NCBI GenBank assembly: GCA_903845365.1
Contig: CAIMXI010000452.1
Location: 1-64,000, forward strand
Direction: 5' to 3'
Length of the DNA stretch: 64,000 nucleotides
From: an uncultured Geobacteraceae bacterium
GTDB taxonomy: Bacteria; Desulfobacterota; Desulfuromonadia; Geobacterales; Pseudopelobacteraceae
Shown: in pieces, positions 3,745 through 19,804 of the stretch
How positions within the stretch are numbered: the first letter of the stretch is position 1
Layout: each line of letters begins with the position of its first letter
Notes under the pieces: model-generated
The model's database searches: none
Seen by the model: the letters and a program-made list of their open reading frames with translations, nothing else
What the model was told of the DNA's origin: nothing
Translations under genes and position numbers: made by a program

Positions 3745-6519
3745 TCAATTATGCGCCAGCTTCTGGGCTTCTTTGGCATTGGCCTGAAACAGGTTGGCGG
3801 TTTCGAAAACCAGATTCAACGTGCCGCGATACCCGACCCAAACCTTCTGATGCGCTCCAAGGCGGTCAAAGACCGGCAGACCGGCTCTTAGGTGAGCGCC
3901 TATTCCAAGCTTATTAGCAGCCTGTCGGCCGTTGGAGTTGGCCACGATCAGGTCGGCGCCTACCGCAGACGTCTCAAGATCCTCAAGATCACCGACGAAC
4001 ACGTTGTCACTCGGCAGATCATCCAGACCCCGGGTTCGGGTGGCGGAAAGCGCGGCCTGGATTTCGCACCCCATACCAGCCAGGAAACGGGTCAACGTTT
4101 TAAGATTATCCGACTCCAAAGCAAGTGCTACTTTCTTGTTGCCGAACTGGTAGTGGCTGTCCACCATTGCATCCATCAAGCGACTCCGCCAGCGGCGATG
4201 CTTTTCCGGTATCGGTCTACCGCTGATGGCAGACAGCACCTCCATGAAGCGGTCACTCTCGGCCAGACCGGTTAACGAAGTGAAGCCATATACCGGAACA
4301 GCGAATTTTTCTTTTAGCTTGAGGGCGGCTTTCGCCAGCGAATCCCCTACGTACAATGTCGCACAGCTACGTCCGGCTTTTTTGATATCCTCAACGGTAA
4401 TGCCGCCGGTTGAAAGCGGCGAGACAACCTCGTCGATATGCCCATCCATAGCATTTGAGATATCCGGGATCGTAAGTACCTTTAAACCGAAAGAGTCGAC
4501 CAGCTCTTTCAGCTCTTCCACGTCGGCCGGCGTCAGGTGCGCGCCAGGAAGCAGATTGATTTGGCCCGGAATAACCGCACCCCCCTCCGCAAGGGTTGAA
4601 ACAATCGCCTCGACTGCGGCGGCGTAACCCTCCTGTAATGATCCGCAGTAATCCGGCGTAGACGCCCAGATAATGGGAACATCTGCATGCTCCGGCTTCT
4701 CCTCCCGGAACTGTTTGATAGCGCTGCTGACGTCATCACCCATCGTTTCGGTCAACCCGGTTGTCATGACGCCGACTACCTCTGGCGCGAACTTCTCGAT
4801 TACCCGCCCGATCCCCTTTTTCAGATTATCCCAACCACCGAAAATGGCACTGTCCTCACTCATGGCGGTGGCGTTAAGCGCGATAGATTCCTTGTAATGC
4901 CGAGACAGTTGCAGACGTATAAAGGTCGAACACCCCTGGGCTCCGTGGAGCAGGCCAAGCATGTTGTCGATCCCCAGATAAGCCATGGTGGCTCCGAGCG
5001 CCGGTGAGTTCTTCTGTGGGTTGACCGTGGCAGCCTTGGTTGAGACCTTGACCCTGGAAATTGAGATATCTTCTGCCAGGAACGTCTCGGCATGGCTCAA
5101 CGCTGTCGTCACATAATTTTCCGCAGGGGCGAGCGGCCGGTCGCCCCTGCATTTTTCCCATGGTGCGGGAGCGTTCAGCGCCGCCCATATCGGGTTATTG
5201 ACGGTCATATCCAACTGCCGGGAAAAGGTTACCATCCCTTCGTACCCGGCGTATGGGTGGCTGCGGCCGTGGTTGATATCCATGAACGGTGTCTTTGTCT
5301 TCAAGGCCAGAAACTTGGTCTTGCCGCCGGCAACAATCAGATCTGGTCGCTTGTCACGCATTACTTCCAGCAGACCGGCGGTGGAGGTATCATCAATGAT
5401 ATGGGCGTCCTTGTGCATCAACCCTTTCATGCGGTAAAAATCTTCCAGGGTAGAGTTCTGAGTACCTGCTGCCAATACCTCGACCCCAAGTTCGCGCAGT
5501 GAGTTGACCATCGACCAGGTTTTGACGCCGCCGGTGAAAAGCACCGCCGTCTTGCCTGCCAGTCGTTCACGGTAGGGTGCAATGGCGGTACGGCATTTTG
5601 TTTCTTCCTCTTCTATCAGCCGCTCGACCCGATCCTGCATGACCCGTTTTTCCAGGCCGTTCACTATATTATCAAGCTCGCGGGCTATATTACGCAACGC
5701 CTTGGCGGTATCGGTCATACCATAAAAGGATTCTTCAAGATAAGGCATGCCGTAGTTTTTCTGCATTTTTTTCGCCAGGTTGGTCAACGACTTGGAACAG
5801 ATGATGATGTTAAGTTTGGCTCGGTGAGCGTAACGAAGCTCCTCAAATCTGGCATCGCCGCTAAAGCAGGAAAGTATCTGAATTCCCAGGGGGTCAAAGA
5901 GCGGCAGTATCCCCCAGAGATCACCGGCGATATTGTACTCGCCGATCAGGTTGATCGGGTATTCACCCAGTATCGGTGGTTTAGTCGTGCCGATGACATA
6001 CTTGAAGAGGATCTCTCCGGCCAGGCGGTTGCCGATATTCTTGTCGCCGATGAAACCGGGGGTATTAACCGGAATAATCGGAATAGCAATTTTTTCCGCC
6101 GCCGCCGTGCAGACCGCCTCAACATCATCGCCGGTCATGGCGGTTACGCAGGTGGCGTAGACAAATATCGCCCGTGCCTGATCCTTGTAGCGGTCGGCCA
6201 GATCGAGAATTGCCTTGTAGAGTTTTTTCTCCCCGCCGAAGATGACGTCATTCTCCAGCATCTCGGTGGTAAAGCCGCGACGGTATAGCTGAGAATCGCT
6301 GGAGCGGGCGCCTCTGTTGTCCCACGAATTACCGGCGCAGCCGATTGGGCCATGCACCAGATGAATGACGTCAGTTATCGGCATCAGCACGACCCGGGCA
6401 CCGTCGAAAGCGCATGAGCGTTCAGTTCCCTCCCCCGGTTCGGATTTTTTACAGAACTTTGGCGCGCCCTTATCGTTTGTTTCGCAGTCAGTTACATCGT
6501 AATAATCTGGCTTTGCCAT
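3745..6519 (-). CDS. nifEN: Fused FeMo-cofactor scaffold protein NifE-NifN
   Basis: A single 924-residue protein carrying both subunits of the scaffold on which the nitrogenase iron-molybdenum cofactor is completed. The NifE half has the P-cluster-like cysteines C36 (SCAFDGA), C61 (GPIGCAGNSW) and C124 (YATCVTAM). The NifN half starts near residue 480 with HGAQGCSTF and ends with a typical NifN tail. The start at 6519 is chosen over an upstream in-frame ATG at 6627 because it has GGGAGG at good spacing and gives the normal NifE N-terminus. NifEN fusions are known in Geobacter-type bacteria, so this is a fusion and not an assembly error. No nifHDK, nifB or other nif gene lies in this window, so the gene seems to be transcribed alone here. 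Confidence 0.95.
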   Translation of the reverse strand: MAKPDYYDVTDCETNDKGAPKFCKKSEPGEGTERSCAFDGARVVLMPITDVIHLVHGPIGCAGNSWDNRGARSSDSQLYRRGFTTEMLENDVIFGGEKKLYKAILDLADRYKDQARAIFVYATCVTAMTGDDVEAVCTAAAEKIAIPIIPVNTPGFIGDKNIGNRLAGEILFKYVIGTTKPPILGEYPINLIGEYNIAGDLWGILPLFDPLGIQILSCFSGDARFEELRYAHRAKLNIIICSKSLTNLAKKMQKNYGMPYLEESFYGMTDTAKALRNIARELDNIVNGLEKRVMQDRVERLIEEEETKCRTAIAPYRERLAGKTAVLFTGGVKTWSMVNSLRELGVEVLAAGTQNSTLEDFYRMKGLMHKDAHIIDDTSTAGLLEVMRDKRPDLIVAGGKTKFLALKTKTPFMDINHGRSHPYAGYEGMVTFSRQLDMTVNNPIWAALNAPAPWEKCRGDRPLAPAENYVTTALSHAETFLAEDISISRVKVSTKAATVNPQKNSPALGATMAYLGIDNMLGLLHGAQGCSTFIRLQLSRHYKESIALNATAMSEDSAIFGGWDNLKKGIGRVIEKFAPEVVGVMTTGLTETMGDDVSSAIKQFREEKPEHADVPIIWASTPDYCGSLQEGYAAAVEAIVSTLAEGGAVIPGQINLLPGAHLTPADVEELKELVDSFGLKVLTIPDISNAMDGHIDEVVSPLSTGGITVEDIKKAGRSCATLYVGDSLAKAALKLKEKFAVPVYGFTSLTGLAESDRFMEVLSAISGRPIPEKHRRWRSRLMDAMVDSHYQFGNKKVALALESDNLKTLTRFLAGMGCEIQAALSATRTRGLDDLPSDNVFVGDLEDLETSAVGADLIVANSNGRQAANKLGIGAHLRAGLPVFDRLGAHQKVWVGYRGTLNLVFETANLFQANAKEAQKLAHN

Positions 6520-16839: not shown

Positions 16840-17685
16840 TTATTTTTTTCGCTCAAGTTTTTTATTTGCTGTTTCGATCTGATTGATGCCCTGTTTCGGT
16901 GTTGGCAGCACTTCCGGCATGGTTCCACCCAATTCCTCGATAGTCTTACGTACCTTTTGCCCTACTTAAAAGTGGGTTTGGTTGGCGCGTCGTTTTCCGT
17001 GTATCGGATCGCGTTTCAATTTTTCCTCTGTTTGAGTAGCGCGAAACAGGTTTGCTGCCAGTTCAGTGCTTCCCATGTGGTCAAGTATCTTCTGGCTTTT
17101 CTTCAATCCCTTCCGTGCGTGAATATCCTTTGCTGCAAGCCCGCCGTACAGTCCTTTATAGCCATGATCCTGAAAGATGGCGTAGTCAAGGCTGGTTTCG
17201 ACACCTTTCTCTTTTGCCGCTGCAGCTAGATGCTTGTTATGTTGGGCAAGCTCATTGCGTATGGCCAGACGTTTTTCGTCTTCACTCAGACGCGTAAACT
17301 GCTCGTTATCTGCCAATTCCTGGCGGCGGGTCTGTATGGCAAAATAGGTTTGGCCAAGAGCAATGACCGGTTTTGACGGATCACCGTTCTGCACAATCAG
17401 ATAGCAGGCATAGCGAGACAGGCGTACATCTTCAATCTGTCGTTTCGCGCCTGAGCCGATTTCGACCATTTCGAGGATATCCTCGAAATGGTCAACAGTA
17501 TCTCGTTCGCTCTTGCGGCACGCCTCGCGGGCACGTTCTATTACCGGCAAAAAATGCCGATATACCGAGTATTCAAGCACTGCTGCAAGCTTACGGGCAC
17601 TCCAGTACTCGTCGCCATTTTCATCTACGCTTCTAATGCTTTCAAAGGTGGCGTTATGCTGATTCAAAATTTGTTTTTCAGTCAT
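16840..17685 (-). pseudogene. dinD: dinD-like gene with an in-frame stop codon
   Basis: The reading frame from 17685 encodes 239 residues and stops at TAA (16966-16968). Past that stop, the same frame continues for 41 codons to a TAA at 16840 and encodes VRKTIEELGGTMPEVLPTP, the usual C-terminus of DinD proteins. The full product would be about 281 residues, close to E. coli DinD (274). A single base change, for example GAA to TAA, would explain this. The N-terminal part has the family core (YWSARKLAAVLEY, MVEIGSGAKRQ, LSRYACYLIVQNGDPSKP, YFAIQTRRQE). DinD is a DNA-damage-induced protein reported to act against RecA filaments in E. coli. The truncated protein could still be made. A perfect 30-bp palindrome lies within the coding sequence at 17464-17493. 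Confidence 0.8.
17464..17493. repeat. Dyad copy 1, inside dinD
   Basis: The half-site GACCATTTCGAGGAT is followed by its exact reverse complement. It encodes DHFEDILEMV in dinD. It matches the intergenic copy at 17714 at 26 of 30 positions, and the four differences are two symmetric pairs that preserve the palindrome. Confidence 0.85.
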
Positions 17686-17898: not shown

Positions 17899-19008
17899 CT
17901 AAGCCTCTATTTCAAAGGCTTTGGCAAGTATTTTACCCGGCAGCAAATTGATCTCAGCCAACTGTTTTTCAATGGCGCTACGCATCGGCTTTAACTCCGC
18001 CAGCGCCTTTGCTGCCGTAACCTGGACTGTGTATGACGGCAACTCGATGTTTCCTTCCGCCAGTCGGTTAAACAGCATACGCTCGCGCACCGCGCCACGG
18101 GCGAGCGAGGCGATGCAGCTTACACCGTAGGGAGAGCGGAGCCAGTAATAGAACCAGCGCGAATCGACCAGCCCCTCTTTTCCCCGCAACGCCACATAAT
18201 CCGGGCTGGTAATGCCGGGCGTGTCGAACTCATCCACCATAGCTATCGAGCCGATCATGATACGCATGGGGTTGTAGAAAACCGTGCCGTGCAGTACCGG
18301 CTTGTAGCGTTCCGGGATTTTGCCCACCGGTTCCTTGGCCAGCGCCAGACCGGCTCGTGTGGCTCCCAGCACCGGATAGTTTGCCCAGGTTTTGCCAACA
18401 CCTTTCTTTACCTCATCGAGTACGTCGCCAAGTTTTGCCGGGGCAGTGTCCGGCTGTTCGACGCTTTGGCGGATGATGGCGTTGGCGAGGTTGGTGAGTT
18501 CGGTGAGTTGGAGTTGTGCTGCGGTGCGGGCTTGTTCGAGGGTGGTGAGTTGGGATTTTAGGTTGGCGGCGATGAGGCGTTGAGTGGATATATCTGGTAA
18601 TATAACATCTAATTGTGATAAGTCTGAACCGCTAATAGCCTCAAAAGTCGAGCCTTGTCCTTTTTCAACTAAAGCCGGTTGAGCGAACTTCAAAAAATAC
18701 CATAAGTAATCTCGTTCAATCAGCTTGGCAATTGGACGGATTGATGCGAGCCCACGCCCTATGCAACAACGTTCAAAGGCTAGGTTTGTAGGACCAACTG
18801 GAGCACGCACGGACATAAGGATGTCTCCATCCTCAGCAATCCTGATAGGCGCAGAACACCATATTCTTGCTTTTGGATAAACATCTCCAAAATCTGATTT
18901 ACCTTGATAAAACGGAAGTCCCAAGCCCTTATCATTATATGTGGTGCCTTCAGGGGATTGCCCCATCATCAAGCAAGCAACTTCACTCAATTTCATCATT
19001 GTACTCAT
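17899..19008 (-). CDS. hsdS: Type I R-M specificity subunit HsdS (island 1)
   Basis: A 369-residue specificity subunit with two target recognition domains. TRD1 covers about residues 5-140 (MMGQSPEGTTYN, FYQGKSDFGDVYP, GDILMSVRAPVGPTN). A conserved helical spacer follows (STQRLIAANLKSQLTTLEQARTAAQ). TRD2 covers about 190-330 (PVLGATRAGLALAKE, VFYNPMRIMIGSIAM), and a second helix closes the protein. At 369 residues it is somewhat short but both half-sites are represented, so it should recognise a bipartite target. It is separated from hsdR by the transposase gene and from hsdM by dinD, an unusual gene order R-tnp-S-dinD-M. Confidence 0.92.
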   Translation of the reverse strand: MSTMMKLSEVACLMMGQSPEGTTYNDKGLGLPFYQGKSDFGDVYPKARIWCSAPIRIAEDGDILMSVRAPVGPTNLAFERCCIGRGLASIRPIAKLIERDYLWYFLKFAQPALVEKGQGSTFEAISGSDLSQLDVILPDISTQRLIAANLKSQLTTLEQARTAAQLQLTELTNLANAIIRQSVEQPDTAPAKLGDVLDEVKKGVGKTWANYPVLGATRAGLALAKEPVGKIPERYKPVLHGTVFYNPMRIMIGSIAMVDEFDTPGITSPDYVALRGKEGLVDSRWFYYWLRSPYGVSCIASLARGAVRERMLFNRLAEGNIELPSYTVQVTAAKALAELKPMRSAIEKQLAEINLLPGKILAKAFEIEA

Positions 19009-19059: not shown

Positions 19060-19092
19060 AGACCTGCCAGGTTTTCAAAACCTGGCAGGTCT
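19060..19092. repeat. REP hairpin, downstream of the transposase gene
   Basis: AGACCTGCCAGGTTTT and its exact reverse complement surround a single C. It lies between the transposase stop and the hsdS start. Confidence 0.9.
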
Positions 19093-19124
19093 AAGGTCTA
19101 ATGCTACACCTATCAGGTCATATT

Positions 19125-19733
19125 CTAATCAAAGTCCTCTGTTACCAGATGACGGATGACCGATTCTTCACACAGCACATCATGAAGCTGAACAAAATGG
19201 TTTTTACCCTGAAACCACTGCAACACCTCATCTTTTCTTACATTAGTCGGCTTGTCGGAGACAATCGCCTGGTACGATGAGAATGGATATTGTCTGAAGT
19301 CGTCAACAAATCCATGCTTCTGAGGATTGAAATGGATGTAGTGTATGAGCTGGGCAAAATATCGGTCAGAATCAACCTCAATCCGGTTAAATGGCTTCTG
19401 GAACAGGCTGCCGGTGCGCTGGTAAGCAGTATTCATTGCCTTGGCGTAACTATTGAACAGATTGGAAAATTGAAGTGACACATGGCGTGGCTCCAAGACC
19501 TGCCAGGTTTCTGAAACCTGGCAGGTCTGTCTCTCCAGCACTCGGACCAGAATATGAAAATGATTGCGCATCAGACAATAAGCGTATGTGTCACAAACCG
19601 GCAGAATGTACTTCTGATAAAGCTGAAGGAAATAACGATAGTTACGTTCTTCAAAGAATATATTTTCCCGATTATTACCACGGTTGTAAATGTGGTAGTA
19701 ATGTCCCGGTTCAAGCGGGATAATGGCTTGCAT
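19125..19733 (-). CDS. REP-associated tyrosine transposase (RAYT, Y1/HUH family)
   Basis: A 202-residue single-strand DNA transposase of the IS200/IS605-related RAYT group. The N-terminus is YHIYNRGNNRENIF, the metal-binding HUH motif is HFHIL (near residues 58-62), and the catalytic tyrosine lies in HYIHFNPQKHG. The C-terminal FSSYQAI segment is also typical. Residues about 68-84 (RQTCQVSETWQVLE) do not belong to the family: they are the in-frame translation of a REP hairpin identical in arm sequence to the REPs on both sides of the gene. The catalytic residues are unaffected, so activity is possible. The gene sits between hsdR and hsdS on their strand. RAYTs are thought to be domesticated proteins that maintain REP sequences. 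Confidence 0.9.
   Translation of the reverse strand: MQAIIPLEPGHYYHIYNRGNNRENIFFEERNYRYFLQLYQKYILPVCDTYAYCLMRNHFHILVRVLERQTCQVSETWQVLEPRHVSLQFSNLFNSYAKAMNTAYQRTGSLFQKPFNRIEVDSDRYFAQLIHYIHFNPQKHGFVDDFRQYPFSSYQAIVSDKPTNVRKDEVLQWFQGKNHFVQLHDVLCEESVIRHLVTEDFD
19496..19528. repeat. REP hairpin inside the transposase gene
   Basis: AGACCTGCCAGGTTTC and its exact reverse complement surround a single T. The arms match the flanking REPs except at the base next to the loop, where both arms have changed together. Confidence 0.9.
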
Positions 19734-19754
19734 TCTGACTCCTAAGCCGACACC

Positions 19755-19804
19755 AGACCTGCCAGGTTTTTAGACCTGCCAGGTTTTTAAAACCTGGCAG
19801 GTCT
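19755..19804. repeat. REP hairpin plus half-copy, upstream of the transposase gene
   Basis: A lone arm AGACCTGCCAGGTTTT at 19755-19770 is followed by a complete hairpin at 19772-19804 with a single-base loop. The hairpin ends six bases past the hsdR stop codon. Confidence 0.9.

Follow-up and report, generated by a model that had tools for sequence, protein, structure and literature searches.

Why should a transposase gene carry, within its own reading frame, a copy of the palindromes that bracket it, and is such a copy kept as peptide, as RNA or as DNA? The question is raised by a locus in an uncultured Geobacteraceae bacterium (GCA_903845365.1, contig CAIMXI010000452.1, positions 1-64,000 of the forward strand; this whole stretch of 64,000 nucleotides is the window referred to below). 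The features on which the argument rests are the following:

17899..19008, minus strand: hsdS, type I specificity subunit (Methylase_S), neighbouring gene, given for context
19060..19092, no strand: flanking palindrome on the gene's 3' side, 16-bp arms and 1-nt loop
19125..19733, minus strand: RAYT/TnpAREP-like Y1 transposase gene, 202 aa (ORF, NF047646, PF01797, fold match 4er8)
19323..19340, minus strand: Tyr motif Y132-IHFN-P137 (YIHFNP), from the alignment
19496..19528, no strand: in-gene palindrome AGACCTGCCAGGTTTCTGAAACCTGGCAGGTCT (written for the + strand), residues 69-80, 16-bp arms and 1-nt loop
19554..19565, minus strand: HUH motif N57-H58-F59-H60 (NHFH), from the alignment
19755..19769, no strand: extra half-palindrome (one arm, identified by arm sequence), between the 5' palindrome and the gene
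19772..19804, no strand: flanking palindrome on the gene's 5' side, 16-bp arms and 1-nt loop
19811..22213, minus strand: hsdR, type I restriction subunit (Pfam/NCBIfam), the other neighbouring gene, given for context

A RAYT-type transposase gene with a palindrome in frame

Judged by its motifs and its predicted fold, the window gene is a RAYT-type transposase, with HUH and Y---NP motifs on a TnpAREP fold. This identity was part of the original prediction and is borne out by the AlphaFold model (mean pLDDT 90), for which the closest solved structure is that of E. coli TnpAREP in complex with a REP hairpin, 4er8 (Z 17.1, rmsd 2.6, 161 residues). H58, H60, Y132, N136 and P137 are invariant in an alignment of 47 sequences. 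NF047646 (REP_Tyr_transpos) is matched by all 47 aligned members, the window protein's own match lying, at 64 bits, under the model cut-off of 80; against Pfam Y1_Tnp (PF01797) the window protein scores at the cut-off. The protein has LFQ and YIHFNP, and thus keeps the Y---NP of the WQ/YIxNNP signature but not the W and the second N. The same genome holds four other Y1_Tnp genes, on contigs C91, C315, C142 and C222.

Three perfect 33-bp palindromes are present at the locus, each consisting of 16-bp fully paired arms and a 1-nt loop; two of them flank the gene, and the third lies inside it, in frame, between the HUH motif (codons 57-60) and YIHFNP (codons 132-137), with the ORF remaining open. 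The sole difference of the in-gene from the flanking arms is the pair beside the loop (T.A to C.G), both bases having changed together. The original prediction of three hairpins of the same class, one of them read in frame after the HUH motif and differing at the loop-adjacent base alone, therefore stands; its inventory of full copies was correct but missed the half-copy at 19755-19769, and its figure of 14-17 added residues does not hold, since the palindrome is 11 codons' worth of DNA and encodes the peptide QTCQVSETWQVL (residues 69-80, ~11-12 residues).

The genome-wide count of this class that had been proposed at the same time gave 7 occurrences of the exact 15-mer arm in the 5.5-Mb genome, all of them at the RAYT locus, and 0 occurrences of the reversed-pattern control of the same 15-mer, which excludes a chance origin of the palindromes. 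No dispersed REP copies were found in this genome, the palindrome being confined to the RAYT locus, and neither GTAG nor GTGG, the two forms of a GT[AG]G foot, adjoins any of the three palindromes. Because the palindrome is dispersed in relatives and not in its own genome, we describe the locus as RAYT-like with REP-like palindromes, not as a full RAYT/REP system.

Folding of the in-gene hairpin gave values better than 200 of 200 shuffles both as RNA (-39 kcal/mol, z -4.4) and as DNA (z -4.3); both folds favour the hairpin, and folding does not tell the two levels apart. In the AF2 model the palindrome-coded residues 69-80 are predicted to form a disordered loop of low confidence (pLDDT ~50), preceded by a strand (58-65) and followed by a helix (83-103).

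Relation to known systems

The window gene resembles E. coli TnpAREP (4er8) and the REP/BIME system in its fold, its HUH and Y motifs and its flanking inverted palindromes. E. coli REPs occur in hundreds of copies and carry GTAG, whereas the window palindrome copies are confined to the RAYT locus; to our knowledge, the E. coli REPs do not lie inside the TnpAREP gene. With IS200/IS605 TnpA the window gene shares the HUH/Y1 catalytic fold and hairpins near both ends, yet the structural match of the window protein model to these transposases is lower (Z 7-9 only, vs 17), and we know of no in-gene hairpin in IS200/IS605 TnpA. Rickettsia palindromic elements (RPE) are palindromes that are read through in unrelated genes. 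The same is described for the GTAG/CGTC repeats studied by Di Nocera's group, which are read through in the ORFs of unrelated genes (PMC3733652). As in both of these cases, the window palindrome is read in frame in a gene; unlike in both, where the host genes are many and unrelated, the host gene here is the palindrome's own transposase.

In-gene palindromes of this kind are already known, and were published in 2018. In Quentin et al. 2018 (PMC6006769), in-frame REPs within the gene, generally between HuH and Y, are the hallmark of TnpAREP subclass 2.4, which is equated there with RAYT group 4 of Bertels et al. 2017; these in-gene REPs are placed in a peripheral variable region and regarded as a tolerated insertion with little effect. 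Measured against that description (PMC6006769), the window gene has the anatomy of subclass 2.4. A palindrome of the flanking type is read in frame within the variable beta3-alphaC region that separates HuH from Y; the gene shares the occurrence in many phyla and the low gene copy number; and its HUH-Y distance is enlarged, at 74 aa (66-106 in palindrome carriers, ~60 in the short-linker NHYH group, and a median of 88 given for subclass 2.4). It differs from the GT[AG]G foot, WQ and YIxNNP of the subclass in that the foot is absent and FQ and YIHFNP are found instead. The window gene is thus a further case of a known phenomenon. What appears to be new, as far as the searchable literature goes, is that the in-gene copies track the flanking ones and that their arms are conserved at the DNA level, neither of which is reported in the accessible part of Quentin et al. 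2018 (PMC6006769).

Distribution among relatives

We compared 79 related loci from Thermodesulfobacteriota, Myxococcota, Chloroflexota, Bacteroidota, Gammaproteobacteria and others. A palindrome lies between HUH and Tyr in 38 of them, and 37 of 42 in-gene palindromes, the window's counted, are fully paired. In an ML tree of the conserved core, the window gene's own branch, which is weakly supported (84/73), has the in-gene palindrome in 27 of its 30 genes and spans several phyla; two of the three exceptions (L027, L059) have linkers with apparent decayed traces of a palindrome. The set of four genes comprising the window gene, L052, L017 and L018 is firm in the same tree (100/99). Of the 18 genes whose core is less than 45% identical to that of the window protein, a single one has an in-gene palindrome. 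Palindrome-free members exist (L037 and the short-linker NHYH group), so the in-gene palindrome is not essential for the family. Both flanking palindromes are present in 20 of 39 loci, and one flank in 13.

What had looked like a one-off event in the window gene is therefore an old and near-universal trait of its branch. Palindrome-free relatives do not have the same residues in the linker, as a refutation of the original prediction would require, but other ones, and the palindrome-coded residues are present only where the DNA palindrome, or apparent decayed traces of it, is present too. A search bias from the palindrome-coded peptide as seed was considered and rejected, as every relative retrieved was also found by another seed.

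Some linkers have a more complex history. In L047 and L048 the stretch after NHFH contains in-frame decayed arms (DLTDFKN, DLTGFKN) followed by one perfect palindrome, and from such sequences it would seem that palindrome copies accrete and decay in the loop. L036 (~1896-1982) and L038 (~2205-2290) have two in-gene palindromes, of AGACC type and then AAACC type, ~51-53 nt apart; this ordered doublet mirrors a doublet upstream of the same gene, and comparison with L035 and L028, which are without the second in-gene copy, gives a clean 51-nt in-frame insertion in L036/L038. In L021, L044 and L052, some in-gene copies are inside-out with respect to the flanks, with the arm order reversed (e.g. 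CTCGGAGG vs CTCCGAGG), as if they had been assembled from tandem half-sites; the window half-copy at 19755-19769 may be related to these.

In-gene copies track the flanking copies

Across the loci the palindromes are of many types (TGCCAGG, TTCCAGG, TGACAGG, TCACAGG, TCCGAGG, CCGAAGG, CGCAGAGG, TTGCCAA, GCCTTCG and others), and the in-gene type agrees with that of the flanks at its own locus, with a median arm identity of 1.00 and a minimum of 0.81. With gene distance controlled, distances between in-gene palindromes still follow those between flanking palindromes over 31 loci (partial Mantel r = 0.895, 0/5000 permutations). L052 illustrates this at close range: its protein has 79% core identity to the window protein, and both of its in-gene copies and all of its flanks are TCCGAGG, not TGCCAGG. 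In-gene and flanking types covary more than gene relatedness accounts for.

This bears on the idea that the hairpin acts in the mRNA, where 15-16 paired bases could slow translation or attract RNase III and binding by the enzyme would not be needed. Its fold of -39 kcal/mol (z -4.4) agrees with this, as does the finding that, of the 6 positions at which in-gene palindromes are mispaired, 4 form U.G in the sense RNA, and control of an IS transposase by mRNA structure is known from ISPpu9 (PMC8450116). Stability, however, needs no flank-matching sequence, any stable hairpin being enough, and yet the flanks are matched; we consider control by RNA structure unlikely.

The palindrome is conserved as DNA and not as peptide

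L017 and L018 occupy the same genomic site in two Geobacteraceae, with neighbouring genes that align on both sides. Between them 0 of 30 arm positions have changed, compared with 22.7% of positions elsewhere (Fisher p 5.6e-4). The same was found for L025 and L029, which also share a site (0/30 vs 28.7%, Fisher p 5.3e-5), and for the window and L017 (0/30 vs 29.7%, Fisher p 3.6e-5); in the youngest pairs (L047/L048, L051/L053, L035/L036) the contrast between arms and the rest is not significant when each is taken alone.

The encoded peptide is not conserved. In L017 the copy is 34 nt long, which places its second arm in another frame (NLAGL, vs TWQV in the window), and the same DNA arms are accordingly read as TCQVSETWQV in the window and TCQVSENLAGL in L017, the peptides diverging mid-palindrome; the length of the linker downstream of the palindrome differs between the two as well. 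All three frames are used across the set (e.g. TCQVSETWQV, DLPGFKNLEGL, RLAKFQKLGKS), and NLTGFQNLSGL is another of the peptides encoded. Since the arms are constant while peptides and frames vary, selection or copying appears to act on the DNA hairpin and not on the peptide. A function of the extra peptide at the protein level has its presence in many members in its favour and nothing else; with all three frames in use, unrelated peptides, and a low-confidence loop in the model, we find it hardly credible. The conservation at the DNA level argues strongly against a peptide function, and strongly also against a purely neutral, decaying insertion.

Changes within the arms can be paired. L036 and L038, at one site in Methylobacter, differ in their arms solely by a T.A to C.G pair, the right-hand member of which turns Glu to Gly, and the syntenic orthologues L020 and L029 show four arm changes, consistent with two swapped pairs. 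Such paired changes in L036 and L020 would be explained by template switching during replication of the hairpin, which could keep the arms complementary with no selection at all; the mechanism is established for hairpins generally (PMC8794818, PMC7202029). It would keep the arms like each other, though, and would neither hold them unchanged from one species to another nor make them match the flanks, and the lack of any change in 15 independent pairs has p ~0.02 for L017/L018 and 0.006 for L025/L029. Upkeep by mutation is in our view very unlikely.

Dispersed copies and the retention of the in-gene palindrome

Other host genomes contain 3 to 55 dispersed copies of this palindrome class; those of four relatives hold 29, 19, 9 and 55. 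For 40 dispersed copies from four genomes we looked at the surroundings: a single copy clearly falls within a gene, a few are in short or doubtful frames, and the remainder are outside genes. As dispersed copies are almost always found outside genes, the near-universal retention in the RAYT loop stands out. The one copy inside a gene (L180, G152:C27:61874-63302) is a ACCTGCCAGGT-type palindrome, in frame in an apparent ABC exporter, where it encodes the peptide EDLPGFENLAGL and separates the membrane portion from the ATPase portion.

Retention might be explained with no function at all, if palindromes copied by the RAYT are harmless in the loop, and repeated overwriting or re-insertion makes them match the flanks. 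Toleration is the view published by Quentin et al. 2018 (PMC6006769), and it agrees with the location of the in-gene copy in a predicted loop and with the accumulation of copies and decayed half-copies, as in the 51-nt insertion of L036/L038 and the decayed repeats of L047/L048. In L020 (Adhaeribacter) the in-gene copy is, loop included, the commonest dispersed variant of its genome, a pattern that suggests overwriting more than slow selection. On the other side, the window, L017 and L018 copies share a TTTC arm-loop boundary that differs from what is found in the window gene's and L017's flanks; this lineage-specific feature indicates that the three copies have not been wholly overwritten, though their arms show 0/30 changes. 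The TCCC variant of L036, moreover, was not found elsewhere in its genome among the matches listed, and dispersed copies are almost never in other genes. Toleration and overwriting as the full explanation seem to us rather doubtful.

On balance we favour, by a modest degree of confidence, an old in-gene cognate hairpin that is kept as DNA and recognised by the enzyme. A cognate palindrome would have entered the gene in the ancestor of the branch, in codons of a disordered surface loop leading from the HUH strand to the next helix, where 11 extra codons would be harmless. It would since have been kept as a DNA hairpin, with a sequence that follows the type used by the enzyme of each lineage, whatever the peptide. 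The likely reason would be that the in-gene hairpin is still a real substrate or binding site, which changes along with enzyme specificity and the flanking sites. Of selection through recognition by the enzyme, repeated overwriting from other copies and hairpin-templated repair, we judge the first, which we infer, to be the most likely, with some copying between sites. The GT[AG]G foot used by known TnpAREP enzymes (PMC6006769) is absent from the window palindromes, and this counts against it.

We speculate that, given a cognate site within its gene, the enzyme could act on that gene or its transcript, by binding, nicking or stalling, and so hold down its own expression. The coevolution with the flanks, together with the conservation at the DNA level, makes a functional self-target a fair hypothesis. 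That the palindrome is a selected self-target, providing negative feedback and coevolving with the DNA specificity of the enzyme across phyla, we put forward as a tentative candidate explanation. An altered activity or a self-regulation at the RNA level through the in-gene hairpin, as put forward in the original prediction, is possible.

In bacterial genomes RAYTs endure as single genes even as their palindromes spread; what limits them and what determines their specificity is the wider question here. If the in-gene site is indeed cognate, each coding sequence would hold a record of the specificity of the enzyme it encodes, and the loop-tolerated REPs, so far a curiosity of the literature, would turn into evidence for DNA-level selection in a coding region. 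The in-gene site also makes self-limitation genetically testable, as the palindrome can be altered with the protein unchanged.

The R-M setting and the history of the locus

The gene order at the locus is hsdM, dinD, hsdS, RAYT and hsdR (Pfam/NCBIfam); the dinD-like gene (Bro-N, DNA damage-inducible protein D) is at 16966-17685 on the minus strand, between hsdM and hsdS. The R-M setting noted earlier is thereby confirmed, but a special link to it is not, since relatives of the operon are without the insertion: the same R-M operon in G052 (hsdR 87% identical) and G009 (90%) has an hsdR-hsdS gap without a RAYT. G023 (hsdR 97% identical) was left out as an empty site, its contig stopping right after hsdR. 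A link of the element to the R-M system was dropped; the setting is incidental, and nothing ties the element to restriction.

Other sampled genomes of the same genus contain no branch members (best 39% identity), and a phylum sample of 395 genomes contains no other member at a comparable score (305 vs 141 bits), the next-best matches being mostly open frames of more than 300 aa. This supports horizontal acquisition within the scope of that sample, from which the Geobacteraceae relatives L017/L018 are absent. Viral contigs encoded no relative, and the plasmid collection gave distant partial matches only (< 60% identity, < 80% coverage). Copies from the same genome (L084/L093, L021/L022, L030/L087, L032/L039) revealed no clean element ends. 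Given the lack of relatives in the genus and phylum samples and the empty sites in G052 and G009, the element was most likely acquired by horizontal transfer and inserted between hsdR and hsdS; the unit that arrived would have been a low-copy RAYT gene bracketed by cognate palindromes. In another species the same hsdR-hsdS gap (L228, G009, ~3900-4000) holds a different, C/G-rich inverted-repeat block, and from these sequences the gap seems to accept insertions repeatedly.
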